Assembly (NCBI RefSeq): GCF_910592395.1
Contig: NC_088320.1
Span: 12,398,501-12,462,500 of the forward strand
Direction: 5' to 3'
Length of the DNA stretch: 64,000 nt
Source: Lineus longissimus
Lineage: Eukaryota > Nemertea > Pilidiophora > Heteronemertea > Lineidae
Of this stretch, positions 3,401 to 35,654 are shown in pieces (the first letter of the stretch is position 1; the number at the start of each line of letters is the position of its first letter). Below the pieces are notes generated by a model. It did no database searches, was not told the DNA's origin, and saw nothing but the letters and a program-made list of their open reading frames with translations. The position numbers and the translations under genes are program-made.

Positions 3401-3540
3401 ATTCGTAACCACCAAATATCTAGACGGTAAGCAAAATGGCCCCTGGCCCCCACTTAAGTGAGCAGGAACCTTTGGCCATGGCCATTTTCAGTTTGATTAC
3501 GCTCATCGAAGTGTTTTATATTATGTACAGTGTAAATACA

Positions 3541-10635: not shown

Positions 10636-11264
10636 CTGAAAATCCCCCCCCCACAATTTTTGCTACCGCAGTATTGATGTCCTCATAAACAAAATTGCTG
10701 ACTTGCTGTCCTTCACTCGGCTGACCCAAAAATTCCTGCAACATCAACCACCAAAACAATATGTCCGAAGTACACATATTGCAATGACAGAATTTACCAG
10801 TACATTCAATTTGTATACATTTCTGGCAAAGGGGACCACAGCATTTCTATGAGGTCATCACTTTCCCAACAAGAAAATATGTTGAAAAAAAAAAGGATTA
10901 CACTTGCCAGAAACAGAACAATTGCCCTGCCGGGTTAACAATCACGGTAGTTGCTAAAAAGACACCACAAGGAAAACCTTTAAATCTATGCATATCTTTC
11001 AAAACAACACCCAGCCCCCCCCCCCTTCCCCTCAACATTACCAGTAACTTTAATATACATTTGATGAACCTTACTTTCTGAGTTTAGCGGAATCTTTTTG
11101 AACATATTAGTTGGTTCACCATAAATCAAGTCTGAGGGTATTTGAAAAAAAATGCAAATTACAAATGACTATTTACATCGAATGCCTCGAAGCACTAGCA
11201 TATCACCTTTCTCAAAAAGACTAATCTAATAACAAGTGATTTGGATTGATTGCCAATGCAACTA

Positions 11265-12408: not shown

Positions 12409-13139
12409 TTAGATATTTCCCATTTTTTCCTTTGACTTTTTCAACAAGGCGTTTCGTGCATTGCTATCCGATTTGATCATATGCTGAACTCGACTTTTTA
12501 TCTGAGCATCAGTTCTGCTGCGCAGGACTGGAAAATTACCAACTACCCTCGAAATATCATTCTGGCGAGGGATTCGTTTATTCAAGAGGAGTCTCTTGAA
12601 TCCCAGTTCTAATGCAGTCAGTTCTTCCTTTGTCCATCTTACCCTCTGCGTCTTTCCTCTGACAGTTGCTTTACCTTTTTTTCTAGGCATCTCCATACTA
12701 TCATTTCCTGAATCACATTCAGATGATGAGCTGCTACTGCTTGCTTTATAATTTGAATCCATGGTTGAATCATTATGTTCATCAGAGTTCGGTTCTATAT
12801 TTCTAATCTTTTTTCCCTTTCGAGCTGTTCGTCTTGGAAGAGAATCCGGAGAACGGTCGGGTGAATCATCAGGCGGCAATTTATTGGATTTTCTCGGTTT
12901 TCCTTGTATTCCTGTCAACTTCTTTTTCAACTTCCGCTTTTTTGGTCTTCCTTTAGCCACTGAATCATCAGCATGTGGACCATCAACACCCTCTTCACCG
13001 TCACTGTTCTTTCGCTTTCGTCGTTTGTTCTTTGTCTTCTTAACCATACCATTGGAATCACTGGCATGTTCACTGCATTCACCATCATCCTCATCCCAAT
13101 CAACATCATCTTCTTCATCAAAAGCAGTCCTTGGAATAT
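12409..13139 (-). CDS. SET-YR gene, last exon: acidic/basic tail and Myb/SANT-like domain
   Basis: The exon opens after 'TTTCAG' with an Asp/Glu-rich stretch, then long Lys/Arg runs (nuclear-localisation type), a Ser run, and at the C terminus 'RVRWTKEELTALELGF', the start of a Myb/SANT-like helix set. A 'SRTDAQIKSRVQHMIK' recognition-helix-like end follows. Stop at 12409-12411. A C-terminal Myb-like domain after a YR core is, as I recall, common in an unnamed animal YR family. The role is probably sequence-specific DNA binding (inference). Confidence 0.8.
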
Positions 13140-16100
13140 CTGAAACAAGTTTATTTCGTAAATGTTAAAACGTTAAAGAAACAAATGTATCAACATTCCA
13201 AATTTGATCCCATATCACCTTGACATTGATCACAGAAAGCATAATGATGTAAGTCTGAAGCCGTGCAAGTGCCCTGCCATTTCATATTTGCCCAGACTCA
13301 AGTTCATCGTCCTCATAACACATAATCCACAAAGTACTCTACAAGGAGAGGAATCATTTTCCACTCTTGTTCTGGCATGGCACTAAAGTTTAAAGAAAGT
13401 CAGACTTACTGTCTATATCAATTTCGTCCAATGACTTTCCGCTGAAGTTTCCAACCACTCCCTGGTCAATGGCAAGTAACAGTTTGGACACTTTAGCCAT
13501 TTCTATAGTTGATTCGTGCAACCTGTAGGCTTCCTTGTGAATATCCACTGTGTGACCCATATGGTTGCTAAGCCATTCGACTTCACCAGGTGTAAGACCA
13601 AGGATCTGAAAATCAGGTAATGAAACATAATGAATTTCTAGAGTTACAATTAATTCTTACGTATGCTCAACTCTGGCATCGTTGGCACTCGGGAGTTCAA
13701 CACAGTGAGTTAATTTTATAATGATTTAATGAGTCGGACATAATAAAACTCGTCAGTTTCGTAACAATTTATCAAAATAATGAAAATATCATTCTTCTTT
13801 TGTACCATGACTATAGCCCCCAGACAGCTTAAATCAGATGACCACACAAACAATTTCCTGAAGCATTTTGTCCATATGAGACAAGCGCCTATTTGTTCCT
13901 AAGCAGGACACAATATTATATTTGCAGGAATAAATAACCATATTTATTGTCTAGATTACTGCTGGTAATATTTGCTTATCGTTTTGGAGAACGGGAAAGT
14001 GGTGCTGTGATGGAACCACAACACTGACTTATCCTCTGTGATTTTGCTGGGGAATTTTGTATTTGGAATTTGCTGAAACATGTTTCTGTGGCAATTTAGA
14101 AATGTTCATGGTTTTAACGTGTGGGGAAAATCATGTTCTTTTCATCTCTGAACAAAGACGATTCTTTTTGAAATCTCCGCCCAAAAGGGGTCAAATGATG
14201 GGACATTCCCGGCGATGCCAAGCTGTCAATTAAAAAAGTAGCCAATTTGCAATAAGGAAATCTGAAACTTATTTGACTCAAGTCCCGATTCTCTACTGTC
14301 TCTGCGGATTAACAAGTTGCTTAATATTCCAATCCAGAGTTTTGACGGAGATGTAACTTTGGTATAGTTACTGTGTCCGTTTTATGCGTTGATTGTAATC
14401 ATAGATGAAAGTTGTTAGACTGCACAGTGCATTGTAATAACGTGCACAATATCCTTTACAAAAAGATAAACCCAAGCTGATTGTAGAAAATCGTAAAAGA
14501 TAAACCCAAGCGGATTGTAGAAAATCGTATAAAAAAAATTGAAAATTACTGCTAAAACGTTCAATTCAGTTTATAGAAGAAACATCTTTAATTGAGGGTT
14601 GTAAAACATACCTGGGTTACTGTCGCAGTGTATTTTCGTAATCGTGTTGTGGATATCAGCTCTGGTCTTAGACAACCTGCAGCGACAGCAGTTTGGTTGA
14701 GAACCTGAAATATAGGAGATGCTACTTCAAAATATAGCTCATTTCAGGGAATTTGTTGAAAAGGCAAAACTTGAGACAATAATGTCTTGACTTATCAAAA
14801 CTTTTCAGTTATTGATCCCTCCTCATGAAATTAAGACTTGTTTGAAATTTCAGATTTGTCAGATGCCAGATACCTACCTTCCATGGTGCAAGATGATTTG
14901 TCTTGCATGGCTGTCCGAAAAAATATACATTGTTGACGACGTTGCAGGTCTCCCTGTTTCGAACAAGCAGGTCCATTGCTGTTACCCACTCTAGTTTAAG
15001 TAGGAGTGGGACCCTTCTGTTCCGTTTCCCAGGAAGCTGTACCATGTCCAGACTATAAATAAAAATGTGATGAAAAAATTAAGCTCAATTTCGAATTTTA
15101 ATTTCGGCTGAAATGCAACTGCCATGCCAAAAAATTCGAGCAGGCCGGCCCTAGGCCTGCTGGTGTGTAAACAGTTGAGGTCGGCAAAAGGGTTGATAAT
15201 CTTTCCCAAGCGATGTGAAACTTTAAAACATGATTGTTTTGGTGAATTTTTCTCACCGCATACAACTTGTTACTGCATATAGCGAGCGCAAGATCACGGT
15301 TTTCCTCTCCATGATTTGAAAAAGCAGTTGCCAAAATTCTGATATTAAAAGAATCGAAATCAACAGTCCTCACAACAACAATCTGTATAAATTTCGTTTA
15401 CGTAGATTTCTACACCTCCGATAACCACATGTTGTCTTGGATTCTATATCTTGATGTAATCAGTGGTTTGAAATATATTCTCAATATTTCTTTCAATATT
15501 CAGCCTTTCAATATTTCAATGTAGGAGAATAAAAATCCTGTATCTCAGGATGTGGGGATTCATTAAGCGTAGGCTAATGTCTGTATATGGTCTATAGTGT
15601 ATGGTCAGTTTATGGTCTGGAGTATGGTGGGTTCGATGGATTATGGAGTGGTGATGAATGGAAAAATGTCCCTTTTTTCAATCACCCTTACTTTTAGTAA
15701 ATATTCTCGGCCAAATCCCAGCATTTTTCAATTGCTGTGTCCATATTTGGACATGTAGCAAGGTATTTGAAGTGTCGTAGCATTTCCGTCAGTAGTCATT
15801 TGTATCAGAAGAAAAGAGAGGCTCGGCTCGGCTCAGGGGTAGCCGACTTCGATGTTTGATTTTCATGCATGGTGACAAGATTTAGAATGTAAATACGAAT
15901 GTCTATCGCTGGGGTTGCTGTGGTTGACATTCAAATCAGTTTTGATTTTTTTAGACATCTAGAAAGTTAGCTGTACTTTCAGATATATCCGCTGTGAAAT
16001 TTATGGTTGGGTGAAATTGATTGAGAGCCTTTATGGCCTTGTCTAGGGATTCCCTGCTATGGGTCGAAATCATGAAAATATTGTCAATGAACCGTTTCCA

Positions 16101-19100
16101 TAGAATTGGTTGGAACTCTTGGGTTTCCAAAAGTTGTGTTCTAGCATGTCTAGCCTGCCCATGAATAGGTTGCAGAAATTAGGGGCCATGCATGTGTCCA
16201 TGTGTGTGCTGTGAAGGAAGTTTTGTCATCAAAAGTGCAGTTGCATTTGAGGATACTGCATCATTTTTTGTCAGGGTTTCTGTCGGGACAGGTTAGATGT
16301 ATATACCGTCTAGGGCTCCCTTTGCAGCCAAAATCCATTCGGTGTGATGATTATTGGTGTAAAGAGAAGTAACATCTAAAGCGCTGAGACAAAATTTCCT
16401 AGGTATAGTAAGGGGTTTTCCACGTCCTCTTGTACGTGATTGAGAAAGTCAGTGGTATCTCTCAAATAGGAGGGTAGGAGGTACGAGGGCCTTGATTTGG
16501 GTTTCTACAACCTAGAGATATTCTCAGCTTTAATTGCCAGTATTGCTGGAGATAATCGGTCTGTTGGAGTTTCCGGGTTAATATGGGTTATTTTTTATTC
16601 TTGATAAAGAGGTCGTAAGGCATCAACCTATAAGGGCCTATACCAACATAAGCGATTTTCGGGAGCGTTTCACAGCCAAGGTACGCTTTTTTCGTTGGCA
16701 TGCAACGCGGCTAAAGATAACAAAGTCTTTGGTTCAAAGATAAATAGCTCAAGTATCGTAAATGTACTTACCTCTTCATCAGCTGTACCTCGAGAGGTGA
16801 TAGAGAGTTGACAATCTCTTCGTTGGCCAGTGCATTCCACTTCGGTCTATCTACGAAGCAAGACAAATTCATCTTGGCCACTTCTCCTCCCCTGCGCTTA
16901 TTGAATAATGTAACGAGGCAGAACAACACTTCTGACAACCTTCTCCATGAACAGGATGATTGATGGTCTTGAAGGTCCTGCACACTGGTCGCCAACTGCT
17001 GTTGCAGATAGTTCTTAAACGACAACAAGTCGCTAGTTAATGGAAGTATTTCTGTTGCATTATACCGGCGCTCCTTTAAGCTTTGCAAAGCCTGGGTTGA
17101 AATAGACTGGGTCCATTCTGCATTGAATAGTTTTAGGAATGTTCGTGATTGCTCATCTATGTCCCGATCTTTTTTTCTGAGACCCATGCCTCTTTTTATA
17201 AGGCCACACCGTTTAAGAGAGTGTCCGAGATGTAGACCGAGTGAAGGGGTTCCAAGTAAAGGGACCCCACTCATTGTGGTATCCTCACTTACACTACACA
17301 GTTCTTTTGTTACATTGACTGCATCATCAAAATAACATCCATCAATTATTTCAGTCAGTGAAATGTTTTTCTTTACACTATCACGAAATGCAATCAAGAA
17401 GCGTGCTAGTTGTCGCATTCTTTGGGATATGATATAATGTTTGTTTCTTCCTAATCTGTTGAGAAGTATCGACCCAAATTTCAATATCATGAAATCTTTC
17501 TCGACAGCTGACTTTATAGGACCATGGCGCATCCTACTGATTACCGCCTCCCTCAAGGTTACAATATCCTGGCTGAAAAGTGGCTCATTAGCCCGTGTAG
17601 CACCTTCCAGGAAAATCCGGCACTGAACCTTCATGGAATGGCTTCTGTTCGTTTCTGAAGTTGTTTTATCCGTATGATTTTCCTCCTCAGCTTCACTTTC
17701 AAGCAAACAGTCGTTATCTTCAGCTGATGCATCGCTATTTTTCCCTCGATCATTAAATATGCAGGTTTTTACATGCCTCCAACACTCATCTTGATGCAAG
17801 AATGCCAAACAATAAATGCATGGCAAGTACTCCTCTGCGTTTCTGGCTACAGATGGTCGGCGGGACACAATGAGACTACCTTCTCCTTTCTGGAGAACCT
17901 TGATATTATGGCTAAAGTCTCCCATGTGCCGCAAACGTTCTTTTTCTTTATCCTTATGGGCTTTGTCCGAAATTGCCTGAATTTTGGCCACCTCCATTTC
18001 GTCTTTGTGAGCCTTTCCCCAATGGCGGGACACTTTACTGTCTAAGGCCCCACAGAAATAACACGAGTGGCGTCGATCGTAGGTTCTTGCACCATCACTC
18101 TTTCTCTGGTACACAGGTACTGTAACTAGAGAAAAAAACATGTTCACTGATAGCGCGACTGAGAAAAAATCATCATAACATGAAAGAATAGAGCAATTTT
18201 GAGTTAAATTTTGTCGTGTCTGAAAAATGAAACGGAAATTAAATGTCATATTATAAAATCAACTTGGTTTAGAATGAACTACACATCACAGTGTTAATGC
18301 ACTATGTGCCAATGAACCATAACCGCTTTGGTTGGTGCAAAATGTAGAATTTGTACCATTTCAAAAGCATTCAAAACCACTTTATTCCTTATTTGATTTG
18401 AGATTAAGAATTGAAGTCGATACCTCACGGTCAGCATTGATTGTCTCACCTAAACCACTCGGTGGAGCAATTATTGGCCAAAACCTGGCACCGCCTCGGT
18501 CTACAACTTAGCGCCACCCTCACGGTTTTGGTGTGACAACCAATACCTCCAGTTTCATTGCAGTCACTAGCCGGTTATCAGCACTAGCATTAATAGCAAT
18601 GATACATTGTATACCGTTCCTCAATCAGTTATGGTATCAGCGATGCCATTGATTAGTTATTATATCAGTGATGCCAAAATGGTAAATGTCAACTTGGATT
18701 TCAAAACATTGCTCGACATAATTCAGCCTGACCCTATCACTCATCAATAACAGAAATTACAAAGAGCATCATGCTAAATCCCTCCAAGTTCACATATGCT
18801 GCCAAATTCCTGTCGGAATAGTGAAAGTTTTGCATGACATTTTTAAGTGGACAGTGGGCAGATTATGTGGTCAACCAGATACATGCCCCCCCCCCCCTTG
18901 AGCATACCAGACGGTCATAAGATATCTTGATAACTCCACAAGGCACATGGCGGATCGCCGGTGGGAGGGGAGGGGGATGGATGGCTTTGGGATATCACCA
19001 ATATTTTCTCATGAATACATTTCCATCTCAATCATATTAGGTACACCAGCGACCTCAAACATATTAGGTGGACACGCAATTGTCCACTTTATTGACTTGA

Positions 19101-22100
19101 TATGTTGAAACACTACCGTAAAACACTCATTCAAGGGTGCATGGTAAATATATCAGGTAGTCAAGATACAAACGGATAAGTCAGTTGCAATGGAGAAATA
19201 TTTGACAGAAGAAAATTTGTCATTATGGGGCAAAAATATCTATTGCTTTATCTGTTGTAATCTATAGCAGTAGTTTTGCATCCTCGGAAGCTTCTCAGCA
19301 AAACAGTCAAACTGATCACCTCATAGGGCCAAAAGGGTTAAATGGATTGCATTCCCCAATTTGCTCCCTACACACTAAGATATTGCCCATAAATGGCTTC
19401 TTACCTGATGGGTATTTCGACTCTGTTGATTTGGTCTTCATCTTCGTTGTTTTCTTCTTTCCTGCTGATGCACTGCTACAAGCTGTTTCACTCGTTGAGG
19501 CCTAAAAGCAAGAAAACTGAACTAAACACCTTCGAATATTACAAGTTTTATAATTTGAACATGTGTTGGATCAATGTTAAACATGGGCAAAAGTTGGACA
19601 TGACTGACATGTTCAAGCTGAATTTGTCACAGTATTGATATCCAAGAATTGGATGCATTAAATCGAAAAACAATGATTTCAAACATGTTACCATGAAATA
19701 GAATTTTCACATGGACACTACTCTTTTGCCCACTCTATCACTCAGAAGTCATAGGCATGAACAGAAATTGTTTTCTTAATCCCGTGTGTAAAGTACCTCT
19801 GGTCTCATATCGTTCCATCCATCAACTGCATCAGTGAGAAATCACCTAACAATGTACATGATTACGCTGTCGTCTCGGACACTAAATGCCTCATTTATGA
19901 CATGTATAATGGAGTATCTGGCACCTACCAGAGGCAAAATTGCCACAGAAACATACGCTAAATAGTGCTCTTACCTTCTCTTTCTCATTTGCTGGTGGCT
20001 CCGGCCCATTCCTCCTTTCGACACTATTTTGCTTTTTACACTGAAGCTCTGACTTCTTATGTTGAAGGAAGTCGTCTATTTTGAAGAAACTCAGCTTACA
20101 ATCTCCACACCGAAATATGTCTTGATTGTCTAATCCTGTCAACAAAAACAGCGGTTGCTTGAGAAATGCTGACATCAATTTTATTGCATCCATTGTGAAA
20201 TTAGACCAAAATTAGAAGGTGGTTTATGTGTAAAATTGTTCGATTTAATAAATCTGGTTGGATTATTATTGTCATGAGTGTATCTAAATGGTACCCAGAA
20301 CAAATAACATCAAGGGAAACAAATCACCAGGTCCAGGCACTAACATGTTGAAAACAGTGGAGTTTAGCAATTTGTCAGCACTCAATAGATTATGATAGGT
20401 ATGCCACATACAGCATCACGTTACTGTAGATGTTTAGCCCATTACACCTACTCTCATTGAGATTGTGTAACAGATAACATAACAAAAGCCTTTTGGCGCC
20501 CTGCGTTCCACACCGTATTTATCTTGAAATGCATTTCTAGACTAACCTTCTTGTTCGTTTCTCTTCTCTAATTCACCAGACTCTGAATAGGGTTTGGATC
20601 TAACTTCTTCTGTGTTTTCACATGTCTCATTCTCCTGGGAGCTACTATCTTGGGAGCTTTCATTTGGTGAGTGATTGTTTTCGTCCGTGTCTTGTTCGTT
20701 CTGAAATTGAATGATGTAAAAGAACTATGTGGCATACAGAATGCAATCAAGAGATTCACACATAAAGCGATAATCACAAAGCAGAGATGATCATTGGATG
20801 GCGAATATGTAGTCGTCTGTTGAATTCATGAAGATAAATCATGTACTGTGCAGAAGGCCATAATGTTATATTCGAATGCTTGACGCAAGGGCCCAACGCG
20901 CCGCGTAGCGGCAAAAAAGCGAAGCTGGCGAAACATTTATAACGGGTCACCGTCACTTATTATTGGACTTATAGCGCATTTACGGGGTTGCAACTATTTT
21001 GCTTTATAGTGTCACCAGGAAAGAAAAGCATGCGACCTAACGCCGATCTATTTGTATAAAGTGATAATTGGAAGGTATATAGTAGGAAATATCAATAAAA
21101 TAATCATTCCATGTCGTCTTTTGAGGGCATTTTTGATTGTAAAAAATATATGTGTACGTCACCGTAGTCTCGGCAATGATAATTTTATCAGAGCAGTCTC
21201 GCGCAAGTAGAAGTTCTTTACCTATTAGTTCTTCACTTATTAGTCTCAACGTCTGGCGCAAAGCCAGACGTTTTCCATTACGATTTCACTACGATGTTTG
21301 ACAAGAAGGAGCAGTGCGCGAGATATGCTAATGAGCAGACTTCCCTCGCTTGAGTTTCTGAAGAATGTTCCATATCGCGCTAAGCTCATCACTACTGATT
21401 ATGACAGGCGTGCAACGGTAGGTATCTGCTGGTACAATAAGTTACCATTTGATGGGAATGGGACAATGCCCTCACTGTGTATGGAGTCATAGGGATAAGA
21501 AGACATTATTCATTAGTGTTGGTACAAGTGATTTTGCCCAAAAAGCATGCGCATTCAAAAAACAAAATATGCAAGGTATCACGTACATGACCATGACGAC
21601 GTGCAGAAAGTGCACTGGCCAGTGCATACCCTATGGCTATGTACTAGTAAACATGGTAAACAAACATGAACAACATCATTATTCATCGGCAGTTCATTTT
21701 ACTCCGAGCTTTTCCTGAAACATATAGGCATGATGATTAGGCCTACCATGTACCATGTCCATGACCAATAACAGCACCAGATCATGTGGATGTCAACAAG
21801 TTCACATGAACCGTATAATCCCGCATGGCGCATGGGGCATGCGTCTAAACCAAAGCCCCAAAATCACTTGTTTTGGTCTATTTCAGTTTCACTTGTGTTT
21901 CCCCCCGTCCCCCAGTCCATAATACATTTACAGTTTACAATCCCCGATCATGGCCCAACAAAAGGTCATCGGTTGACTAAAGGAACACAACTGTTCAATG
22001 GATTTATAGTTGAATGCGATCAAACTACGTCTTTTCAATCGTGGATTGTAAATTTAACCCCATGGGCCTAGGGAAGGCCCTATAACAATACTTTCGACAC

Positions 22101-25100
22101 AGTTATTATCTCCGCTGCCTCCACCATGTTACACACAGTGCTCACTGCTGATTCTAAAATGCGCCACCTAGTCAAAACAGAACATATGTTCTTCTAGGAA
22201 TAGATCTCTTTCCAATATTTCGTCATTCCACTATCGTCATCACCTCATCATACTTTCATTGACATTACAGGCACACATCCACAGAGCACTCTTCAAATCA
22301 TCTACACAGTGGTTATCCAACTAGGATTATAAAGGTAATTTCTTAGCCCCGCACAGTGGGTTTCAGTCTTGATAAAGGGGCACTATTGCTAGCAGCTAGG
22401 TAGGCAAGATAAAGTTAGACGAAGTAGCCGATAGGGGTCTCTCACCCCTCAAAGTCCGTCACAACTATTCAAGCTTGTACAAGGAATACATGCAGCGCTG
22501 ACTCTAACAAGACCCAATGGGAATGTCGCACAGTCATCTGTCAAAAACAAGACCTTTGTTGCAGTATGATCTCTTGCCAATATTTAATAATTGCACTATC
22601 GTCATCACCTCATCATACTTCATTGACATTACAGGCACACATTGACATTGACCACTGTTCCAGTCAACGACACAGTCGCTATCCAAGTAGCATTATAGAG
22701 GTAATTATCATTATCATACCTCATTAGCATGTGAACCAATCACGTCGCGTCCTTTGCGATCACGGCAAAGCCTCATGGAATAATGTCTTTCACCGTTGAA
22801 TAACTTTTCATATTCCATGCCTACAACTTCAATTTCTTCATATTCCATGGCTAGAAGTTCAATACTAATATAATATCCAAGATAAAGTTACAAGAAGGGG
22901 TCTCTCACCTCTCACTGTATGTCCACACTATTCACGCTTGTACGAGGAATACATTCAATGCTGAATCTAACAACAGCCAGTGCCCTTACTCTGTATATTA
23001 GTCACTGGAAGATGGCCCATTTCACTCCTTGCTTCTACTTCACCTATAGTCTCATTGCAAACGCCTCAGTTCTATGATATCACATTCACTTTCAGCTGTC
23101 ATGCAACGCAACAGCTGTGCTATCTGCCATCGCACATCAAAGAAGAAGTGCAGCCGCCCACATTCCACCTCACGTCTGTCCGACCAGCTGCAATCCTCGA
23201 GGACGCCCCACTGTACCATGATTTCACTACGATGTTTGACAAGAAGGAGCAGTGCGCGAGATAGGCTAATGAGCAGACTTCCCTCGCTTGAGTTTCGGAA
23301 GAATGTTCCATATCGCGCTAAGCTGACCACTGCTGACCATGACAGGCGTGCATTGGACTGGTACAGGTTGGAACTAAACATTGAATATGCTGGTGGTGAC
23401 GCTTTCTGATGAGAAGTTGGTCGTGACTGATGCAGTATCCTTGGACTTGTCCACAGCATCGTTCAATCATTGCTCTCTGAGCTGCCTTGATTCTGTACTT
23501 ACCCAAATACTAAGACCAAATGCCTGTTGACGAGACAAGACCACTAATGAATATTCATAGGTTGGAGGGTCGAGGCCTATCAATTAGACGAGTGCATGTT
23601 TTTTACTCTCAAGTACATATTTGGAGAGGTATTGAAAAAATATTTGCTGTGGCAAGTCTACAGATATAAAGAAATTATTTGATGAAAAAATTAATTTCGA
23701 ATTTTGCTAATTGGGTAATAGGGGGCGTGTTTTGAGTTTTTTCTGCCAGTTGGCTGAAAACAGTGGAAATATCAAAGTCTGTCTAATTTGTCGATTATAA
23801 AAAAATTTCCGTGGTCAATCACCAATTTCCATCGCACCAGTTACTCGCAAGACTAACCCGTATATCATATCCGAATTTCAGTTTCACTACTTGACGCGTT
23901 CTTTGATGCGTCGCGGTCAAACATTGACAATTTAACTGCTAAAAGGCTTAAAAAATCAATTGTGGTCTTGTCTCTATTTACACTACATTTTGGGTCAATA
24001 TAGTGAAAAATTTGAATGTGCTCAAATCACTCTAATTCATTTAGAATATTGTATTGCTGATGATTTAAGGTCAAAACAAGCTAAAATAATGAGAAAAAAA
24101 CTTAATTTGACCCAAATAAGAGTCAACCTAACCCCGGTCTAAGTTCGGTTTCATTTTTACAAGTCTTGTTGTGTTGCCATTCATTTTGTAATTTCTTTGA
24201 AACTACTTAGATCTTGATTCTGAAAGTTGTGCCCTAAGCAGCAAAGATATTCCTAAATCACATCCTAAATTTTCAGCTCCATAGCTTGCATATTCTGGCC
24301 AGGGCAGGTCTTTGAATTTGGTGCTGTTGGCTGCAAAAGCATGACTTTTTGTCGATTTTGTCCTCTTTCGTCGCTTTGGCACAGTTGTACCACTCTTTGA
24401 AATGTATCTCATTTCTCCAAAAATGTCCAGATATGACTTTCCTTTGTTGGAGAGTTGTGGGATGTCATCTACATTAGTTTGAAAAAAATCTCAAAATGTT
24501 AACCCCTGAAATGTACCTTCATTGAGACAAGACCACTAATGAATATTTAATGAATATTCATAGGTTGGAGGGTCGAGGCCTATCAATTAGACGAGTGCAT
24601 GTTTTTTACTCTCAAGTACATATTTGGAGAGGTATTGAAAAAATATTTGCTGTGGCAAGTCTACAGATATAAAGAAATTATTTGATGAAAAAATTAATTT
24701 CGAATTTTGCTAATTGGGTAATAGGGGGCGTGTTTTGAGTTTTTTCTGCCAGTTGGCTGAAAACAGTGGAAATATCAAAGTCTGTCTAATTTGTCGATTA
24801 TAAAAAAATTTCCGTGGTCAATCACCAATTTCCATCGCACCAGTTACTCGCAAGACTAACCCGTATATCATATCCGAATTTCAGTTTCACTACTTGACGC
24901 GTTCTTTGATGCGTCGCGGTCAAACATTGACAATTTAACTGCTAAAAGGCTTAAAAAATCAATTGTGGTCTTGTCTCTGACTGTGCTTTAAGAGAGACTG
25001 GCGCCATGCCTAGAGATATGACTGACCCCTATTGGCAAATTTGTATGACTTTATCTTGCCTACCTAGCTGCTGCCTATAGTCTCCCTTTAACTGCGGAAC

Positions 25101-28100
25101 ACTTCAAAGTCGATAAAATGCCATGTTCCACCTTTTAATGTGTTCAGACCGCCATTTTCAAAATAATCAAGTCAGGACACTGCCTTCTAGTCTCATAATA
25201 AATTTTGCTTTCCTCAATAATAACATTTCTTCTTCTTTAATGCTTTCATCATTCCAAACTTCTCCTCCTCTGACTTTTACAGGGGTACAGTCATGGCAAT
25301 CAAAACCCAAATACTGAGACCAAATGCCTGTTGACTGTGCTTTAAGAGAGACTGGCGCCATGCCTAGTCTCTCTTAAAGCACAGTCAACAGACACCAACC
25401 CCCTCAGACTCAGAAACCACAAACACCCAACCCTTCCTGCTACCTTAATACTTCTGGATGGCTAGCGTAGCAATATCAGATCCTGATACTGGGGAATGGG
25501 ACTTACTAAACACCTCGTACCTGTGCATGTACATAAATTCCCTTACCTCGAACTTCATCATCCCATACTCCGATTCTGAGAGATTTAGTGACAAATTGTC
25601 TGAATGCAACCTTTGATCCATGAAAATCGTTGGAGATATTGGCAACCTTTGATCCATGAAAATCGTTGGAGATATTGGCAGGAGTTCAGCATATTCTGAA
25701 ATCACATAATTATTTATTTTCGTAGGTATGTACAGCAATTTATTTTATTTGGGATACAGTTTTTGCTGTAATATAATTTTTCTTAAGATCTGTATTTTGT
25801 ACTCCCAGATGATCACACAACATTGCAATTATTGTTTGATGTAAAGTCATTGTGACGTAGCTGTGACACCTCTGCTGTTTTATTCTATCACCTCATTATC
25901 GTCTGCTACAGTTACAATGTATAACAGCTCAGTGTATCAGTAACTTCGTCATAATTGGAAGCTTTGCAACATGCATGGATTAGAGAATGCTAAAAGTCGA
26001 TCCTCCTTGGCGTGCATCATTGATGTCACTTGTCAGCTGCCATGGCGTCCAGTAGGAGTAGTAGTAGTAGTAGTAAGAGCACTAATGATAATTACCTTTA
26101 GGTCTAGGTTCTTGTGTATTCTCAGTATCTTCTCCAATTTGAGCACTATCTGGCTGAATTACAGAATTGCCTCTGAACTCATTGGGCAGCAGTGGGATGA
26201 TTGGTTCTGGATGGCTTTGGATCTTGTCGACTTGGATTCTATTTTGCCGTGTTAGAACAGGGGTCGATGAACCTGAAATTTCAATTATATCAGCGTTCAT
26301 GCATGACTGATACTACACACTGGCGCCATACTACATTCCAAACATTATCTAGAATATCATTATGCTGACTGTGCCATTATATATTAAGGCGTTATTTTAC
26401 TCAAATTTAGTTTAATGCGCGAAGGCCAACATGATGGCTTTAATAGAGAAATATAACTGCAGCTATTGGAAATAACCCAAAATACATTAGTATGCCACCT
26501 GGAGAAGTTGGCGAAAACTTCATTTGGACGTAAGGGTAATTTTTCAGAATACAGGTATACACAGGATGGAATTATGAAATTACCTTTTGGATTTTCTCTT
26601 ATATCGATCTCTTCTTCAGCAAGCAATAATGTCTTATCAACTTGGGTGATATCCCTGGGAGTGTTGGTGTCTAACATCTGAAAAAAAGCGCGAACGTCTT
26701 GATTGTTCATCAAAAGCTGACCAGTCAAATAAAGAGGATAAAACATGATAATAATGAACTTGCTTGATAATAGATTATTTGGACACTCACAGGGTGTAAC
26801 AGCACTCAGCCACATGTTTGTGTTAAACTTTTCAGGGCAACATTATCAATGACAAGGAATTTAACAATATATTATGGCTTCGATCTATTTTGTAATCTGG
26901 CGAAAAAAACATTTTGACCTTTTATTGTCTCATAATGCGCATTCAAAGATTCCTACCTCATATTCACTGCCATCAAGATCTTTTCCAGGGCGCACATCAT
27001 TGGGAATCTGGGCTTCAGCACTTGGAATATCAGACAATTCGGTAGTGTTGATGACCAAACAAATAGGATGCGGTTCGGCTGACCCTTAAATGTTGAGTGA
27101 AGATTCTATCATTCTCTATTTTGACACTCTCTGGTATCATAATAAATGTTCCCTAGGAATGACTGTCTCAACCTATGCCACTGTAACGGATAGCAAAATG
27201 AAACGGCCAGGGGCCATTGTGCTCACCGTATACATCTTTTAGTAGGCAGGATCATGCTTAGTTTAGAGGTGAATATGGTGAACACAATCAGGCATGAAGA
27301 CTTTTTTTAGATGTGTATTGATTGTCAAGTAATAAGACAGGGCAGTATATATAAGTTTATGATCCAACCAATAATTGTCTATGACATCAACAAGATCAAT
27401 ATCGTGTGATTGCTAAGAGTCCCTGCAATAAAAAATTCATCGAAAAAAAGTCATTAATAAGCGAGATATTGCATGTCCTACTTTTTCAGTTTTGACTCCC
27501 TGGTGGCCGAATCAAGAATCAGATCAGGCCAAAATTCGGTGTCAGAGATTATCTGATGTAGGGGGTTACATGTACCAACTTTCAAGTTCATAGCTTCAGC
27601 AGTTAAGAAACGTGCCATAGTTACACTCTAATGGCCAATTTACGCCATTTGACCTCTGTGACCTAGAAAAGGAGGTCAAATCCAAAAATCGTAGGACATG
27701 TGGTGTATCCTTGCTAGAAGTCCCTGCCATAAAAATTTTATCGAAAACAATTCACTCAAATAAGCAAGATATTGCACTTCTTCCTTTTTCCATTATGGCC
27801 CCCTGGTGGCCGAATAAAGAATCAGATCAGGCCAAAATTCGGCATCAAAGGTTATCTGATGTAGGGGGTTATATGCACCAAGTTTCAAGTTCATAGCTTT
27901 ACTGGTTAAGAAACGTGCCATAGTTTACACTCTAACGGCCAATTTACGCCATATGACCTCTGTGACCTTGAAAAGTAGGTCAAATTGAAAACCCGTAAGA
28001 CATGTGATGTATTCTTCCTAAGAGTACCTACCATAAAAATTTTATCGAAAACAAGTCACTTATAAGCGAGATATCACACTTTTTAGATATCCACTTTTGG

Positions 28101-28836
28101 CCCCCTGGTGGCAAAGTTGAGAATCAGATCAAACTGAAATTCAGCACCAGAGGCTATGTGATATAGGGGGTTATATGTACCAAGTTTCAAGTTCATAGCT
28201 TTAGTGGTTAAGAAACGTGCCATAGTTTACACTCTAACGGCCAATTTACGCCATATGACCTCTGTGACCTTGAAAAGTAGGTCAAATTGAAAACCCGTAA
28301 GATATGTGATGTATTCTTCCTAAGAGTACCTACCATAAAAATTTTATCGAAAACAAGTCACTTATAAGCGAGATATCACACTTTTTAGATATCCACTTTT
28401 GGCCCCCTGGTGGCAAAGTGGAGAATCAGATCAAACCAAAATTCAGCACCAGAGGCTATGTGATATAGGGGGTTATATGTACCAAGTTTCAAGTTCATAG
28501 CTTTAGTGGTTAAGAAACGTGCCATAGTTTACACTCTAATGGCCAATTTACGCCATATGACCTCTGTGACCTTGAAAACAAGGTCAAATTAAAAACCCGT
28601 ATAATATAAAATGTATATTTGCTATGAGTACCTACAACAAAAGTTTTATCGAAAACAAGTCACTAATAAGCGAGATATCACACTTTTTAGATATCGACAT
28701 TTGGCCCCCTGGTGGCCAAACAGAGAATCAGATCGGACCGAAAATCAGTGTCAGAGGTCAGCTGACCTGGGGCATTCTGTGTACAAAGTTTCAAGTTCAT
28801 AGCCCTAGCAGTTAAGAAACGTGCCACTGTTAGGAT

Positions 28837-28876
<40 letters not shown>

Positions 28877-31800
28877 ACACAGCGCTATCGTATAGACTCC
28901 CCTTACGGTGAGCCAAAAAAAGTTTATCGCTTCTCCATTTTGCTCCACGTACCATTTTTCAAACCTACTTTAGAACAAGAATACTTCAAATGATAAGCTT
29001 CCGATATGTTAGAGGGGACTTCCCAAGGTAGAGGGGACTTTTTCAATATTGTAGATACAACACAAATATTATGGGGACACAGAATGTCACATACGGCAAA
29101 GGAAAGCCTCCCCCCTCTCCCCGAATCACAACGAAATGCCTGTGTTTTATCATGATTTTGGAACAAAAATACTTCAAATGATAAGTTTCCGATATGTTAG
29201 AGGGGACTTAGATACAACACAAATATTATGGGGACACAAAATATCACATACGGCAAAGGAAAGCCTCCCCCCTCCCCGAATCACAAAGAAATGCCTGTAT
29301 TTAATCATGATTTTGGCAATAAACATTCAGAAAAGTGTATGCGAGTTGTTGTTGTCCTTATACTGAAATGCCATGTCAAACCCTGTGTTGCAGCGCGTTT
29401 CTTCCCAAATAAATACATTATCATGAGTGTGCAGGTCTACTGTACTCTTATGGGTTAGATATTAGTACTTACCATTGGATGGCTGAGTCATGATCGCCCC
29501 CACTTCAGCATCAAGGATGATATCAGTTGCATGTATTCTGGCTTTAGGTGGACCAGCCTTCGACTTCTTAACGCAAGTGTGTCCACTTATAATAGAGTGA
29601 AGAGGACAGGGGTCCACTTACAGGGAAAATATGGTGAACTCTCACATTTCTTGAAAAAATGCACGTATGCTAACCATGTTGCTGGCTCCCCAGCCAAATC
29701 GCATTTTGATCTATGTTAGATCTCTTAATTCATAAATGAACTGCAGAAAAACATCAAATATCATGGGTTATCCAAAACCCAGTCGGTCATTGTACGATTT
29801 CTGCCAATTAAATTGTAATTTCCAGATCAACTGATATTCAGCTAGGTTGTAAAGTTGAAAGCAGAAGAGCTCCGAGCGGAGTAGTGACCAGATAACCTAA
29901 ACACGATTCGGAAAAAGTTTCAGTTCTAGTAAGTGACAATGTTTGTTTAGCAGACACTTGAAAACATACACATTATTTTGTCTGTCTCGCTCCATGATCA
30001 TGTTCTACCAATCATATTTCGGTGGGGGCACTTGCATGAAAAAATAACAACATTAGACTGGTAGTTTTAAAATCACTAATCACTTGGTCCTTCTTTATAT
30101 CGAAAATGCCATAGTTATGGGGACATTTCTTTCAGAAAGAGGCATTTTCAACCTAATGTCGAACTGGAACTTTTTTAAGTGGACCGGTCTTCAGCATAGC
30201 CGATCGCACTTCGTGTCCACTTAAACGTAATTAGTTCAACGTTCAGAAAGTGCATACACAAAAAGGGGAGACCTCTCATATTCTTGGATTTTTATGCATC
30301 AATAATATCACCAGTTCTATGTATGCTAAAATGCACGAGTAGTCTGTTTAAAAGAACTTGAGTCTTCGTGACAATGAATTTGTCAGAGGTTAATTGAATC
30401 ATCCAAGAACAACTGATTTTCCCTTGGTGTCATGCCACACTACGACAGGGTCTAATTATTGATAAAAAACAAAGCTTACTGGCTTGTCAGATGTTCGCCA
30501 TGGTAGATCTGTAACACCATAATCGTATCGTAATTCCTCGCCAATGCCAATGTTCCTGCTGGCAAATAAAGCCAAATATGGCTTCCCTTCCTTCGCAACC
30601 ATTCTCATTGAACAATTGTCCGACCCGTTCACGCCATCATTCACTAAGCGCCCAAGACTTCCATCGTCTCGTGTTGCATCGACACTGAAATTCAAACAAA
30701 TAAATTAGCCATGCAAGGTAATTACCCTCAGCAATCAAACCTCGTATAAAAAAATGCATTACAATATAAAGTAATCGAAAGTTCAAAGTTCGGGTGGAAC
30801 AAACTCTCCTATATAATTGATATATTGTCTGAAAGTTGTAGCATGCAAATATTCACGACATATGTTGGTAGTCCAGATTGTACCTGCCCCCTGACAAAGT
30901 CTCAGTGCATATTCAGAAGTAATTGTTTAACTCATAATATGTAGCTATGTCAGGAAGGAGCAACTGGATGACAATGGTCGAAGCGGGTGACGTTCTAGAT
31001 CAAAAAACAATACAGATACTCTTTACTCATCTCCAACATTCGAATTCGAATTCGAATTCGTATGAGCAATGCATTGTCCCTCCCGCGTGTCAGTCGGTAT
31101 CAAAGCAATTGATGCTTCATCAAGTCGTAAGCAAGTTCCTGAATGGCACCCTATTGCTTGCGGGCCTTATTGTCTTAATGTTTATTAGGTCTAATCTAGC
31201 TCACTGATCTGCGCCAGTTTTCAAACAGGGAATGAAAAGGTTCATTTTCACCGCCCAGGAACATGTAAAAAGGAGGCTGAATCGATTGTCGTGCGAAATT
31301 CCCTTTAACCGCATAATTTTTAAATGCAAACACATTAAAACTTACCACATCGTTTCACTTCCGAATTTGAAAAAATACATAAAGCTTCCTAAACCAGCCT
31401 CTTTGTAACGTTCTTCTCTAATTTCAGCTTCAGCTGTTTTTATCACCTCCCCCTTGTAAATCAAGAGGAAGTCACCCTTTTCAAAAGGGACTTCAGTGAA
31501 AACACCCCTACCTGAAATAAGAAAATATGATTTTTTGATAGGCCTAAAGATAAACGTGTGTTCGATGCAGCAGTGGAATGGTTGAAAATGGTTGCACCAT
31601 CTAAACTATGGTTAATATAGGGCACAAGCACTCTTAGTCTTAGAAATAAATGTTGGTGAGGTTCTGAAAAAATCTTTAAAAGTCTTTTGGAAACAAAATA
31701 CACACCCCGTAGAGGTTTTTGAGACTGTGGAAACCTTCTTACTCTGCTTTGTCGCGTCGCTGCACCTCCACGCAGGAGTGCATATTTGTGCTGGCCGAAA

Positions 31801-34800
31801 AACCAAGGTTTTCAAAAGGTCAAACATATTTACAAATATTTCAAAGAGTGTTCCTACGCTTCATTTCTCTGTTCACCAGAAAAACAATATGGGGAGGCTG
31901 ACTCTCAATCATAAGATGCATTGTTAAGGGTTATCAGTCTGATTATAAAATGCCTCCCGATACAGATGTCAAGGACTGATATATTGGTAGTTGTGATGCA
32001 CATCCGTTTTGGTAGGGGCACATAAAAAAGTTCAGCCCATGCAACACGGACATGCAGAACAAGACAGGACGGACTGACTCAAGCACACAAATGGTGAAGT
32101 CTACACTGTTTGTATATAGACTGTAATACAATGTTCTGTTAGGGGGCATTCATTGGCTGAAATAAAAGGTCGGCCTCTGTCACAGCATGGTCACAGGAAG
32201 ACCTGTATCGATAGCCCAATATCATGGGCATGGCGATCCTGCGGATTCTGCGGAATCTGGGCGGAATCAGCATAAAAACAGCTCGAGAATATCGATATTA
32301 TGATAAATTATCCTTATAATAAATATTTGTAATATTCCATAACTGTTAAATTGTCTAAACCGCTAAGATATCAAGCATTTCGGAAAAACCCCAACATGCA
32401 TGAAAAAAATGTCTGCATTCTATTATCGGACGATTTCCACATTGGTCTCGTTAGGGAGTTTTTCCCAAATGTACGCGATGATGACGTGCCCCATTAACAG
32501 GACGTAACATCTATTTTAAAATGCGTTTCCAAAGTGAATGCATGAGGACAACCCATTTGTGTCGTATATCACATATATGCCCCTGATTCTGCAGGATGTT
32601 AAATCGGGTATTTTATTTCTTTTAATAAATCATAAGCGTCACATTTGCTCCTAGCTCTGTTCACCATCCCAAATGGCAATATTGCGAATTGGGCCGGACA
32701 ATCACGAAAACCCCCAAATATTATACATTTTTTCCTGGATAATTCTTACAGTGACCATTCTCCCATGAAAGACAGTTGCTTACGCTACACAAAAATCCAA
32801 AAAAATCGAGGGTCAACCATTGAACTTTTGAGATATGTTGAATTTTGCATAAATCAGCGAAAAGCGCACCAACTGGCACTGGACGGCATTTCAAGACGGG
32901 GCCGACGCACATCCCAAGTTCAGTGTACACATACGTCGGCAACAACAGTATAAATGCGTAGTTTCTTGTTAGCCGCCTGTTGAGTAGCGCTCTAGGTTTC
33001 AGAAACTCAAAAAAAACATATCTTTGCCAAAACAACTGCTGAATCAACACTGACATACTGTAAGGACCGAGAAATCAATGATTTTAGGAACTACGGGGGC
33101 GCAACCCAGGCCGAGTTGGTAATAAAATAATAGGCCGAGTCACACGTCATTTTCGCTCATTCGTTAATTTGTTAATATCGTGCAGAATACAATAGGGATG
33201 ATGGACACTTTTTCCAGGGGACATTTTAAACTTCTACACTGGCCTGGTTGACACGTCTCTCTTTATTTTACAACATCGCAAAATCGTGCACGAGCAACAT
33301 ACGATTGCCTTGATGATCCATCATTAAGATATTCAAGTCACATGATGACTGATGATGTCCAGGACTCTCAGATGACAAATCAGTTTAAACAGAGAATTTC
33401 CCACTCTCATGATAATAAATAAAAGATTTTTCTAAAACGTCCACCGGAGTCAATCATCCCACTCTTGATGACCAAACAGCCAGCAAGATCATGCGATGAC
33501 AGGTGACAAGCCCGAGATCCTGGCAACGATCCTTAAAACACCCAAGTCCCAGGAGGCGAAACGACTAATTTTTGGGTAGAGTGACTCTCGGACACTCTCT
33601 TGATTTTAGCTTGATTACATTACATCACGGCAGCGGCCACCGTGGGGCCTAATGGTTTTAGGCTAAGTTTGGGGGCGAAAATGCTGGGGGCGAAAACGTC
33701 AGGGAGCGAAACTACCGGATACCAATCCGCTGCAGACCAGATTCCGCAGAATCCGCAGGATCCGCTAAATCGCCATGCCCCAATATCATTCACATTTGTT
33801 AAATGCTTTTCCATATTTTAGAACTTCGCGAAAATTATTGTCACGTCTGTGTTTAAGCCTTCGATAAACAATGAGAGAAACACCGCATGATGGATGGATT
33901 TACATGTTTAAAGGCAGTCAGATTACCTCACGTTGGAGTCGTATAACTAACATCTATTGCGTGAACATGACTAACTTCGGAACTTTTGAACGCCTTGATT
34001 TTAATCTATATTTTAGCCCCACCCTCGCGGTTTTGGTGAGACAACCAATACCTCCATTTGATCTAACAAACGTTTCAGTGTCATCAATAATCCCTTGGCA
34101 GTTCGCAATACGGAGAAGGATTAAAATGGTGCAAGTTGTCAACCATATATATCATGTGAGTCGTTCGAATGTGCGATGACAAATAATTTTTCTATCCCTG
34201 CACTCGGGTGAAAGCTCACTGGCAGCCTCATAGGGTAATACAGGCTGTCCTTGCCTATAACGTCTTTGAGTGACATTACAATGAGGCCCGACGGGGTACA
34301 TAATGATTATGTGTAGGCCTGACTTCGCATGTCACATGGATATGAAACCCAACGATATTGGTCAAATGTTCTTACGCCAGACTGCCACAGTCTGTGGACG
34401 GGGAAACTCATTCATTGAGTTGTACACATGTTTTTAAGATCGTTATTCGGGAGCGGTGCACAAACGACTCTTGGCGTCAACCATAAATTTGGCCTGCTTA
34501 ATATCAATTGCTATCTTACTCAAATGATCCCTCACAAATGATTGAAGAGCAACCCAATAAACGTGAAATTGACTTCTCTCATACTAGATAGGAATGAATA
34601 GTGGTTCTTGAATAAAAAAGAGGGAGGAGTTTATACTAAAAAGATTTCTTGAATATTCACACCCACTCCTGGTGATAACCCATTGTGGGCCTAATTAAAT
34701 GTATGGTACATCTTCAGTTGTACAAGAAGGTATAGAATACGTTATAGGCAAGGAAAACCTGTATTACAGGTCCGGCCCGCTGGTAAGAGCGTTCAGGATT

Positions 34801-35643
34801 TGGCATGCGTATCCATTTACCCCTGGGAGAGTCGAGGGGAGAAAATCTTGATCAAGTACACAAAGACGAATGAGCTCTCCTACCCAAGAGCCCAGAGCTC
34901 TAACCTCTATATGCCACATATTGCCCTTATTGAGAACCGTGAGGATGATCCACATCCTCTAACATGTAAAATCAGAACGTCATGAAACTAGAACACTGCA
35001 TTAACGACTAAAAGAAGGCAGTAGCTGTTTCACAGGTGTACACATCACTGCGACCCCCCCCCCCCCCGCACACAAACACAGACAGGCGACCGCAAATACC
35101 ATTTCCCCTACCGGAAATGGTAACTAGCAATTAATCGGTCGACACAAATGGGATTTATGAGGATCTTACTAGAAATCGCTCAATCTTAAATTCAGTCCTG
35201 TTGCTCAGCATCATAAAAATGCAAACAGAGCACAGCAATTACCGCTTAAGACAATGGGTATAGGTCATTTATCTCAGTCAAAAATTTGTTGTCCTAAAAA
35301 AGGGGTGTAGTGTAATAATGCCTCGTGTCAAGAAGAAAAACATACACATTTAGTTCGAAGCAGGGGGGACACCATTCAAATTTAGCCTACATTTACAAGA
35401 GAGGTAAAATATGTGGCGGGGGGGGGGAGCATTGCTAAGTAATTGGCTGTTGTTTTCAGAGCCAGGCCAAATGTAAACTAAAACTTTCTGGTGCAAAGTG
35501 TTTTTTTCTTAAAACTTACCGATATATTCATTGATGTATCTCTCCTGGAATCCTTGCAGATCACTTCCACTGTCAATAAATTCCTTCGCTTTGTCACAGG
35601 GAGGTATCCGTCGACGGCTGCGAAGACGGCTGCAATTTTTCAT
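12409..35643 (-). CDS. SET-domain / zinc-finger / tyrosine-recombinase / Myb-like fusion protein, 16 coding exons
   Basis: Exons (high to low): 35643-35520, 31511-31346, 30684-30480, 29566-29473, 27078-26957, 26677-26584, 26272-26096, 25695-25547, 20700-20547, 20135-19975, 19501-19405, 18125-16772, 15052-14878, 14704-14612, 13605-13410, 13139-12409. Every junction has AG/GT borders and matching phase. The total is 4092 bp, giving 1363 residues. Order: SET domain (about 40-165), acidic linker, C2HC finger (about 430-460), C2H2-like and C2HC motifs (about 525-620), YR core (about 880-1100), basic/Ser-rich tail, Myb/SANT-like domain (about 1290-1345). Likely nuclear and DNA-binding. The ATG at 35643 is provisional, because the exon is open upstream to an acceptor at 35655 whose phase fits a candidate exon ending at 41134. 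The weakest joins are 29566 and the 4.8-kb intron 25547-20700. Two adjacent genes read as one cannot be excluded without cDNA. Confidence 0.7.
13410..20700 (-). CDS. SET-YR gene, zinc-finger and tyrosine-recombinase exons
   Basis: Eight exons from 20700-20547 to 13605-13410, phases 0-1-0-1-2-0-0-1. Exon 20135-19975 has 'FRCGDCKLSFF..FLQHKK..LQC' (C2HC finger). The long exon 18125-16772 has 'CYFCGALDSKVSRHWGKAH' (C2H2), 'CIYCLAFLHQDECWRHVKTC' (C2HC) and ends with the first catalytic box 'LFNKRRGGEVAKM' (Arg925/926). 15052-14878 gives the beta-hairpin '..KRNRRVPLLLKLEW..'. 14704-14612 gives 'TTRLRKYTAT' (box II Arg1047, with Thr where His is usual). 13605-13410 gives 'LSNHMGHTVDIHKEAYRL' (His1073, nucleophile candidate Tyr1082). 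This is a full YR active site apart from the His-to-Thr change. The family resembles Crypton-type or domesticated YR proteins. Confidence 0.85.
15945..16520 (-). pseudogene. Penelope-like reverse transcriptase relic
   Basis: Read on the minus strand in broken frames, hallmark blocks appear in order: 'YLRDTTDFLNHV', 'LDVTSLYTNNHHTEWI', 'MAPNFCNLFMGRLDM' and 'LWKRFIDNIFMISTH'. These match the Penelope-like RT blocks DTTDFL, DVTSLYTNI, GPNxANLFM and RYIDDIF. The catalytic D-D pair is D-N, and stops and frame shifts interrupt it. A dead fragment in an intron of the SET-YR gene. Confidence 0.8.
21285..21425 (+). pseudogene. Exon-like coding relic, copy 1
   Basis: 'gatttcactacgatgtttga' onwards encodes 'DFTTMFDKKEQCARYANEQTSLA', then an extra T shifts the frame, after which 'EFLKNVPYRAKL..DRRA' continues. 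A homologous copy lies at 23060-23380. The source family is not recognised. Confidence 0.5.
22190..22980 (+). repeat. Tandem/nearby duplication, two copies
   Basis: 'cactatcgtcatcacctcat' with 'attgacattacaggcacaca' occurs at ~22240 and ~22600. The segment 'ggggtctctcacc..gcttgta..ggaatacat' occurs at ~22435 and ~22895. Offsets of ~365-460 bp show an imperfect duplication. Confidence 0.6.
23060..23380 (+). pseudogene. Exon-like coding relic, copy 2
   Basis: A longer homologue of 21285-21425: '..HIKEEVQPPTFHL', then 'DAPLYHDFTTMFDKKEQCAR', a stop in place of Tyr, then after the same one-base insertion 'EFRKNVPYRAKLTTADHDRR'. The shared frameshift means the break predates the duplication. Confidence 0.5.
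23532..23974. mobile_element. Composite element, left terminal copy (443 bp)
   Basis: TIR 13 bp (GAGACAAGACCAC/GTGGTCTTGTCTC). Almost identical to 24524-24977. Confidence 0.85.
24524..24977. mobile_element. Composite element, right terminal copy (454 bp)
   Basis: Same sequence as the left copy, apart from an 11-bp internal duplication of 'taatgaatatt' near 24540. Confidence 0.85.
25328..25391. repeat. Perfect foldback, 26-bp arms, 12-bp loop
   Basis: CTGTTGACTGTGCTTTAAGA (arm continues 6 bp) is followed by loop GGCGCCATGCCT and the exact inverted arm. The left arm plus flank also exists at 23525 and 24978, split there by the composite element. Confidence 0.9.
25547..27078 (-). CDS. SET-YR gene, linker exons
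   Basis: Four exons (27078-26957, 26677-26584, 26272-26096, 25695-25547) with phases 1-0-1-1-0, all with clean borders such as 'TTTTTTTCAG' and 'GTAATTTC'. They encode a Pro-, Asp/Glu- and Ser-rich linker without a recognised fold. Exon 25695-25547 contains a 36-nt in-frame tandem duplication (PISPTIFMDQRL twice). These exons connect the SET half to the zinc-finger/YR half. Weak domain content makes them the key test of the fusion. Confidence 0.65.
27405..28920 (-). repeat. R1 satellite array, five 301-bp units with (CGT)n end
   Basis: Unit starts near 27414, 27714, 28020, 28321 and 28622. The two middle units are nearly identical. Each unit contains 'ggccccctggtggc' and 'tgacctctgtgacct'. 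The array ends in (GAC)n at 28839-28875, then 'ggacacagcgctatcgtatagactcccctta', which matches in reverse the head at 2090. It lies in an intron of the SET-YR gene. Confidence 0.95.
28975..29320. repeat. Tandem duplication of ~165-180 bp
   Basis: 'atacttcaaatgataag..ttccgatatgttagaggggactt' to 'cctgt.tt.atcatgattttgg' occurs twice. The first copy has an extra ~25 bp. Confidence 0.85.
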
Positions 35644-35654
35644 CTTGGTTATAT
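29473..35654 (-). CDS. SET-YR gene, SET-domain exons (KMT5A-like)
   Basis: Exon 35654-35520 has '..KAKEFIDSGSDLQGFQERYI'. Exon 31511-31346 opens 'GRGVFTEVPFEKGDFLLIYKGE', the SET N-flank and first SET block. Exon 30684-30480 carries 'CVDATRDDGSLGRLVND' and 'GEELRYDYG', with the catalytic Tyr-type motif, then 'LPWR'. The order and wording match KMT5A (SET8)-like lysine methyltransferases, which act on histone H4 Lys20 in the standard enzyme. Here the usual 'NHS' reads 'VND', so activity is uncertain. No post-SET cysteine cluster is seen. Exon 29566-29473 continues into the linker; its acceptor (GTTAAG) is weak. Confidence 0.8.
29536..29610 (+). repeat. R2 repeat fragment overlapping an exon border
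   Basis: 'gtggaccagccttcgacttcttaacgc' and 'tgtccactta' match R2 at 36326-36370. The proposed acceptor at 29567 lies inside it. Confidence 0.65.
30105..30245 (+). repeat. R2 repeat copy
   Basis: 'gttatggggacatttc' and 'aagtggaccggtctt..gtgtccactta' in the family order. Confidence 0.7.
31090..31290 (+). repeat. Dispersed repeat, also at 61470-61650
   Basis: Shared cues are 'ggtatcaaagca', 'gcaagt..tgaatgg', 'aatctgcgc', 'tcattttcaccgccc' and 'aggctgaatc'. A short 'gaattc' run lies just before it, near 31038-31060. Confidence 0.6.
32226..33780. mobile_element. TIR element, 1555 bp, 9-bp target duplication (MULE-like)
   Basis: Ends GGGCATGGCGAT..ATCGCCATGCCC, with inverted similarity continuing about 35 bp ('cctgcggattctgcggaatctgg'). 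It is flanked by CAATATCAT at 32217-32225 and 33781-33789. A 9-bp duplication and long TIRs suit Mutator-like elements. No transposase is recognised, so it is non-autonomous. It contains the 100-bp repeat also seen at 49846. Confidence 0.8.
33790..35519. other. Intronic sequence, no recognised gene
   Basis: First intron of the SET half. 'ccaccctcgcggttttggtg' near 34020 repeats 18510-18545. A C-run lies at 35056. No exon is convincing here. Confidence 0.5.

Follow-up and report, generated by a model that had tools for sequence, protein, structure and literature searches.

Introduction

In animals, a SET domain joined to a transposition enzyme and host genes with a domain derived from a tyrosine recombinase (YR) are both on record. 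SETMAR consists of a SET domain fused to a mariner transposase (PMC2203978). The Crypton-derived DUF3504 genes (KCTD1, KIAA1958, ZMYM2/3/4, QRICH1, and WOC) are host genes with a YR-derived domain; many of them have added DNA-binding domains, and the WOC/ZMYM group has introns. All seven human DUF3504 domains lack the catalytic Tyr and the second Arg (PMC3212892). Animal Cryptons themselves (CryptonA/I) encode a YR-type enzyme, have no terminal repeats and are described without a C-terminal domain, the YR being their sole recognizable domain (PMC3212892). Here we describe a minus-strand locus in a 64,000-nucleotide (64-kb) stretch of the genome of the nemertean Lineus longissimus (NC_088320.1, positions 12,398,501 to 12,462,500, forward strand), called the window below, in which a SET domain close to that of KMT5A is followed in one open frame by a putative YR-like core.

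A further comparison is offered by the KMT5A-like genes. KMT5A/SETD8 itself is a short protein whose SET domain is C-terminal. Work on embryos of Hydractinia has counted up to 65 KMT5A-like genes, most of them with an N-terminal SET domain; the Hydractinia genes are divergent and do not lie next to one another (PMC10368294). Hydra has 24 genes with a SETD8-like SET domain, and the sea urchin has 61 KMT5A-like genes, 24 of which are expressed in the early embryo; two of these 24 have the SET domain at its canonical C-terminal position, and in most of the others it is N-terminal. Moreover, the longer Hydractinia and urchin genes are alike in both their SET and their C-terminal ends (PMC10368294).

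The window gene resembles each of these systems in part. It would share with SETMAR the fusion of a SET domain to a transposition enzyme; however, its enzyme would be of the tyrosine type and its SET domain is nearest to KMT5A. Like the DUF3504 genes it would be a host gene with a YR-derived domain and, like the WOC/ZMYM group, it has introns, but it keeps the catalytic Tyr and the second Arg that the human genes have lost and gives no DUF3504 match. With animal Cryptons it would have in common a YR-type enzyme and the lack of terminal repeats, but its many introns and its SET, zinc-finger-like and Myb-like parts set it apart from them. Finally, as in the Hydractinia/urchin group, the KMT5A-like SET domain is N-terminal and, as in the longer genes of that group, is followed by a long C-terminal part, a likeness of outline and not of sequence. 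If the locus is one gene, its SET domain stands at the N-terminal end of 1151 residues, in contrast to KMT5A/SETD8. No SET-YR fusion was found described in open-literature passages on Crypton together with SET domain, a scope outside which subscription journals and Repbase reports lie; in the main text of PMC3212892 the terms "SET domain" and "methyltransferase" do not occur.

Results

Exon Chain and Reading Frame

A chain of 11 exons on the minus strand, rebuilt from the sequence, gives one open frame of 1151 codons that starts at ATG 35643, and all 10 introns are of the GT-AG type. The start codon sits 11 nucleotides past an acceptor, a pattern as found after a 5'-leader intron. With two optional exons, X and D, the chain has 13 exons and 1232 codons (81 more) and the frame is still open. 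Both can be skipped because the end of exon C (30480) joins the start of exon E (20700) in phase. The first-pass annotation had assembled sixteen exons into 1364 codons, which was not reproduced. It had also passed from 30480 directly to 25695; this join is out of phase, the frame stopping after 201 codons, and exon X (26677-26584) is needed before 25695. Indeed, exon D is open in phase 1 alone and therefore fits behind exon X only.

Candidate exons were ranked as acceptor/donor pairs on both strands, each pair receiving a score for its splice signals and its codon usage. Generic splice weights were used. The codon table came from a training set of eight exons of the chain (A, B, C, H, I, K, L, and M), which are thus favored in the ranking; exons E, F, G, X, and D were outside this training, and exon M was ranked with an internal donor. 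Among the best 45 candidates, all 11 exons of the chain are present, at ranks 1, 2, 5, 6, 8, 9, 10, 13, 14, 21, and 22. The scores of exons E, F, and G (18.2, 19.1, and 19.8, respectively) exceed that of the top plus-strand candidate (17.1), itself located on a triplet repeat. Several minus-strand candidates outside the predicted gene score equally high. Exon D is absent from the best 45, where an overlapping candidate (25575-25507) has rank 27. Only one of the three phases is open in exons A, B, C, E, F, G, H, I, and L, and two of three in exon K; the single open phases of exons E, F, G, and H match one another in the chain (Table 1). A first automatic chain of 64 mostly short exons, built with too small an intron penalty, was discarded and its strong exons alone were kept.

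Table 1. Exons of the predicted gene, in order of transcription (positions in the window).
Exon	Positions	Strand	Content
A	35520-35654	-	Pre-SET part; ATG 35643; splice scores 7.3/6.2; one open phase
B	31346-31511	-	SET domain, first half (GRGVFTE...)
C	30480-30684	-	SET domain, second half; phase-0 end; Asp at 30636-30638 where NHS has His
X (optional)	26584-26677	-	94 nucleotides; phase 0 alone open; ATG at its start; exon rank 16
D (optional)	25547-25695	-	149 nucleotides; 36-bp direct repeat; phase 1 alone open; codon score slightly negative
E	20547-20700	-	Linker, acidic/serine-rich; phase 0 alone open; in-frame ATG absent
F	19975-20135	-	C2HC zinc-finger-like motif (by eye); in-frame ATG 20193 upstream of acceptor
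G	19405-19501	-	Linker, basic/serine-rich
H	16772-18125	-	Two zinc-finger-like motifs (by eye), then putative YR box I KRRGGE, Arg codons 16896-16891
I	14878-15052	-	GKRNRRVP, beta-hairpin-like (by eye); Lys 15027-15025
K	14612-14704	-	Putative YR box II TRLR; Arg 14638-14636; Thr 14647-14645 opposite lambda Int His308
L	13410-13605	-	Putative YR MGH, His 13554-13552; Tyr 13527-13525
M	12409-13139	-	Linker, acidic/basic, then a Myb-like domain (weak); stop codon at 12411-12409

SET Domain

In the spliced model of 1151 residues, the Pfam SET domain covers residues 42-153 (E 3.7e-15). In a PDB search, KMT5A/SETD8/SET8 entries form the first 14 of the best 60 of 93 rows, with E-values from 6e-27 to 1.5e-25, and the next row is KMT2A (E 2.4e-14). 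By these matches the SET domain is nearest to KMT5A/SETD8, and the KMT5A-like SET domain placed at the N-terminal end by the first-pass annotation is confirmed. In the PDB-search alignment, NDG stands opposite the NHS motif of KMT5A, Asp taking the place of His, and YDYG is directly followed by Val (residue 154). In KMT5A, the NHS His and the Asp after YDYG are residues that have reportedly been mutated to inactivate the enzyme. Both positions being altered here, the activity of the SET domain is therefore uncertain, and it is a guess that the window protein could methylate.

Tyrosine Recombinase-Like Core and Myb-Like End

The C-terminal half contains motifs that resemble the boxes of YRs when read by eye. 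They occur in the order KRRGGE, GKRNRRVP, TRLRKYTAT and MGH, with a Tyr nine residues further on. R, K, R, H, and Y thus occur in order, with Thr in place of the box II His. This core extends over exons H, I, K, and L; the profile alignment described below covers the last two and the others were placed by eye.

The arrangement was compared with a profile of 12 phage and Escherichia coli recombinases, against which a stretch of 233 residues was aligned, the motif not being self-chosen. In the best alignment, the R, H, and Y of the window protein fall opposite Arg311, His333, and Tyr342 of lambda Int, and the Thr falls opposite His308; the residue letters were checked in the alignment. Not one of 520 shuffled sequences matched even two of Arg311, His333, and Tyr342. 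Arg212 and Lys235 of lambda Int lie outside the profile alignment, box I and the Lys being assigned by eye only. A YR-like active site in the C-terminal half is likely from this register, and the window protein appears far from bacterial recombinases in sequence. DNA cutting by the YR part would be a guess.

Searches of domain and structure databases add little to this picture. With a limit of E 10, Pfam finds in the spliced model the SET domain and one zinc-finger match (E 6.5), and nothing else: Phage_integrase has no match up to this value with default HMMER filters, nor is DUF3504 listed. A PDB search with the YR core returned a single row at chance level (E 0.27). Structure prediction for exon H, alone and without relatives, gave a mean predicted local distance difference test score (pLDDT) of 34.1. 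An ordered-motif regular expression in three forms, written after seeing the window, was matched by 54/20000 (A), 0 (B), and 0 (C) shuffles; it was given no weight, real recombinases matching the three forms in 2/12, 1/12, and 0/12 cases.

At the C-terminal end, scanned alone, Myb_DNA-binding (PF00249) is matched with E 0.018 and 15.6 bits vs. a cut-off of 24.4, and a UBA_NBR1_C match (E 0.065) overlaps it. Two claims of the earlier annotation thus stand in part. Its Crypton-like YR core keeps a YR-like active-site arrangement, whereas the "Crypton" label is matched by no profile; its Myb-like end is found by the separate scan but falls below the Pfam cut-off and is unlisted for the whole model. 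Pfam was also run on the open reading frames of the window, 117 of the 151 frames of at least 68 residues being scanned together; many of the other 34 are nested or in repeats, and the longest were scanned separately.

Relatives were also sought among viral and prokaryote contigs. In viral contigs, eight pattern matches to exon H and 19 to the SET part were found, none of them related, and the 18 pattern matches of SET and YR pieces in prokaryote contigs were not related either. A degenerate YR motif had no match in viral contigs and none in prokaryote genome contigs. These negatives say little, since animal genes are not expected in such collections. Fish genomes contain many KMT5A-like SET genes, as well as many YR proteins whose zinc fingers and Myb-like end are similar to those seen here, which is a lead and not evidence.

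Repeats and Other Features of the Window

Several repeats lie in the introns of the predicted gene. A 302-bp unit is present 4.7 times at 27413-28826, in the intron after exon C; diverged copies occur at 383-4795, and positions 62006-62092 match it over a short length. An exact 431-bp direct repeat (23545-24978), the copies of which are 572 bp apart and are bounded by GAGACAAGACCAC-type inverted ends, lies in the long intron upstream of exon E. Between exons H and I, broken frames at 15900-16440 on the minus strand look by eye like a Penelope-type reverse transcriptase; the one piece scanned with Pfam (15954-16178) gave no match.

Elsewhere in the window, a 402-residue open frame on the minus strand (41291-42496) matches the Pfam protein kinase domain over residues 160-363 (E 3.1e-23); the part before it resembles a winged-helix/RFX-type domain by eye, with no Pfam match. 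A tandem duplication of about 2.08 kb (6864-8944 and 9022-11100, 99.6% identity) has a long minus-strand open frame in each copy. Satellite-like arrays are found at 44328-46434 (50-bp unit, 42.5 copies) and 58505-60038 (303-bp unit, 5.1 copies). A large inverted repeat at 52352-53304, with 966 aligned bases at 87%, is possibly a foldback element.

Discussion

A Proposed Single Host Gene

It can be proposed, with modest confidence, that the locus is one intron-rich host gene whose product has a KMT5A-like SET domain at its N-terminal end, followed by zinc fingers, a YR-derived core and a Myb-like end, and that it probably belongs to the Hydractinia/urchin group with N-terminal SET domains. In such a gene, the SET and YR exons would be spliced into one transcript. 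The protein, presumably nuclear, might bind particular DNA through its YR part, its zinc fingers and its Myb-like end, and would in this way bring the SET domain there. In favor of a host gene, no second copy of the coding exons was found in the 64 kb, and the repeats are inside introns.

Several points weigh against this proposal. The joining of SET and YR parts is predicted from the genomic sequence of one genome. The C-to-E or C-to-X junction is the sole test of phase between the two parts and could be passed by coincidence one time in three, so that their unity does not follow from it. The comparison with the Hydractinia/urchin group is by architecture only because the main text of PMC10368294 names no recombinase: recombinase, integrase, Crypton, and Myb have no occurrence there, and the nature of the C-terminal ends is unnamed. 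According to the same study, Nematostella has a single KMT5A gene (PMC10368294). As for the YR core, it has no match in Pfam, NCBIfam, or PHROGs. Its hhalign score was equalled by 18/520 shuffles, and its plain profile hidden Markov model score is ordinary (101/3000 shuffles as high). Pairwise scores against the 12 recombinases are near shuffle level: for the best of them, the integrase of phage Pan3, 4/400 shuffles score as high with a shorter stretch and 11/400 with a longer one, and for the sum over the 12 recombinases 26/400 and 107/400, respectively. In addition, the pairwise alignments with XerD and XerC leave the YR boxes out of register.

Alternative Explanations

The claim of the first-pass annotation that SET and YR parts share one frame holds in that the frame is open and can be spliced with GT-AG introns; two neighboring genes on the same strand remain a rival to it, one that we consider somewhat unlikely. 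A short KMT5A-like gene would then comprise exons A-C and an unseen last exon, and a zinc-finger/YR/Myb gene would start either at exon X (ATG 26677) or at ATG 20193. Exon X does open with an ATG, and ATG 20193, with A at -3 and G at +4, is in frame with exon F without a stop between them; a separate start is therefore possible. Exons E-M could form one gene without the SET exons, in which case the agreement in phase would be the coincidence mentioned above, and the gap of about 9.8 kb between exons C and E contains the 302-bp tandem array. However, exon E has an acceptor and no in-frame ATG and therefore needs a phase-0 exon upstream, which exon C supplies, and exon C closes in a donor, so that a SET-only gene would require another exon. 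Furthermore, predicted proteins in PMC10368294 pair an N-terminal SET domain with a long conserved C-terminal part.

A different origin would be the mobile one. The first-pass annotation had suggested that an element could carry its own SET enzyme. In its broader form, which we regard as unlikely, a KMT5A-like SET domain would have been acquired by a lineage of YR elements and carried by them through animal genomes. The Hydractinia and urchin genes with N-terminal SET domains would be copies or domesticated remains of such elements, and the enzyme might mark chromatin at the targets of the element or at its copies. In the narrower form, the window gene would itself be a copy of a YR-class mobile element carrying its own SET gene; we judge this distinctly improbable. 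It would fit with the retention of most YR active-site residues, unlike in the seven human DUF3504 domains (PMC3212892), and with the KMT5A-like genes of PMC10368294 being many, non-adjacent and divergent, as element copies would be. The window nevertheless gives this suggestion no support. The gene has 10-12 introns, three of them within the YR core, and the check for repeated copies and element ends, run within the window, found no repeat of the coding exons and recognized no terminal repeats; none are found in animal Cryptons either, of which the YR is the sole recognizable domain (PMC3212892).

That the YR-like motifs are a chance resemblance, the C-terminal half being a DNA-binding protein of another type, is hardly credible: the want of a curated profile match to the core and pairwise scores near shuffle level would suit it, but the active-site R, H, and Y line up with those of bacterial recombinases and none of the 520 shuffles matched two or three of them.

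Implications

There are few cases in which a chromatin enzyme is fused to a transposition enzyme. If the single host gene is confirmed, the window case would link a histone methyltransferase domain to a tyrosine-type recombinase. Since the window SET domain does not have the usual NHS motif, caution would then be needed before KMT5A-like expansions are counted as extra histone H4 lysine 20 (H4K20) methyltransferases. If confirmed, the fusion would also offer a simple and testable account of the large number and scattered location of KMT5A-like genes in some animals: a mobile element may have dispersed them or been their source.

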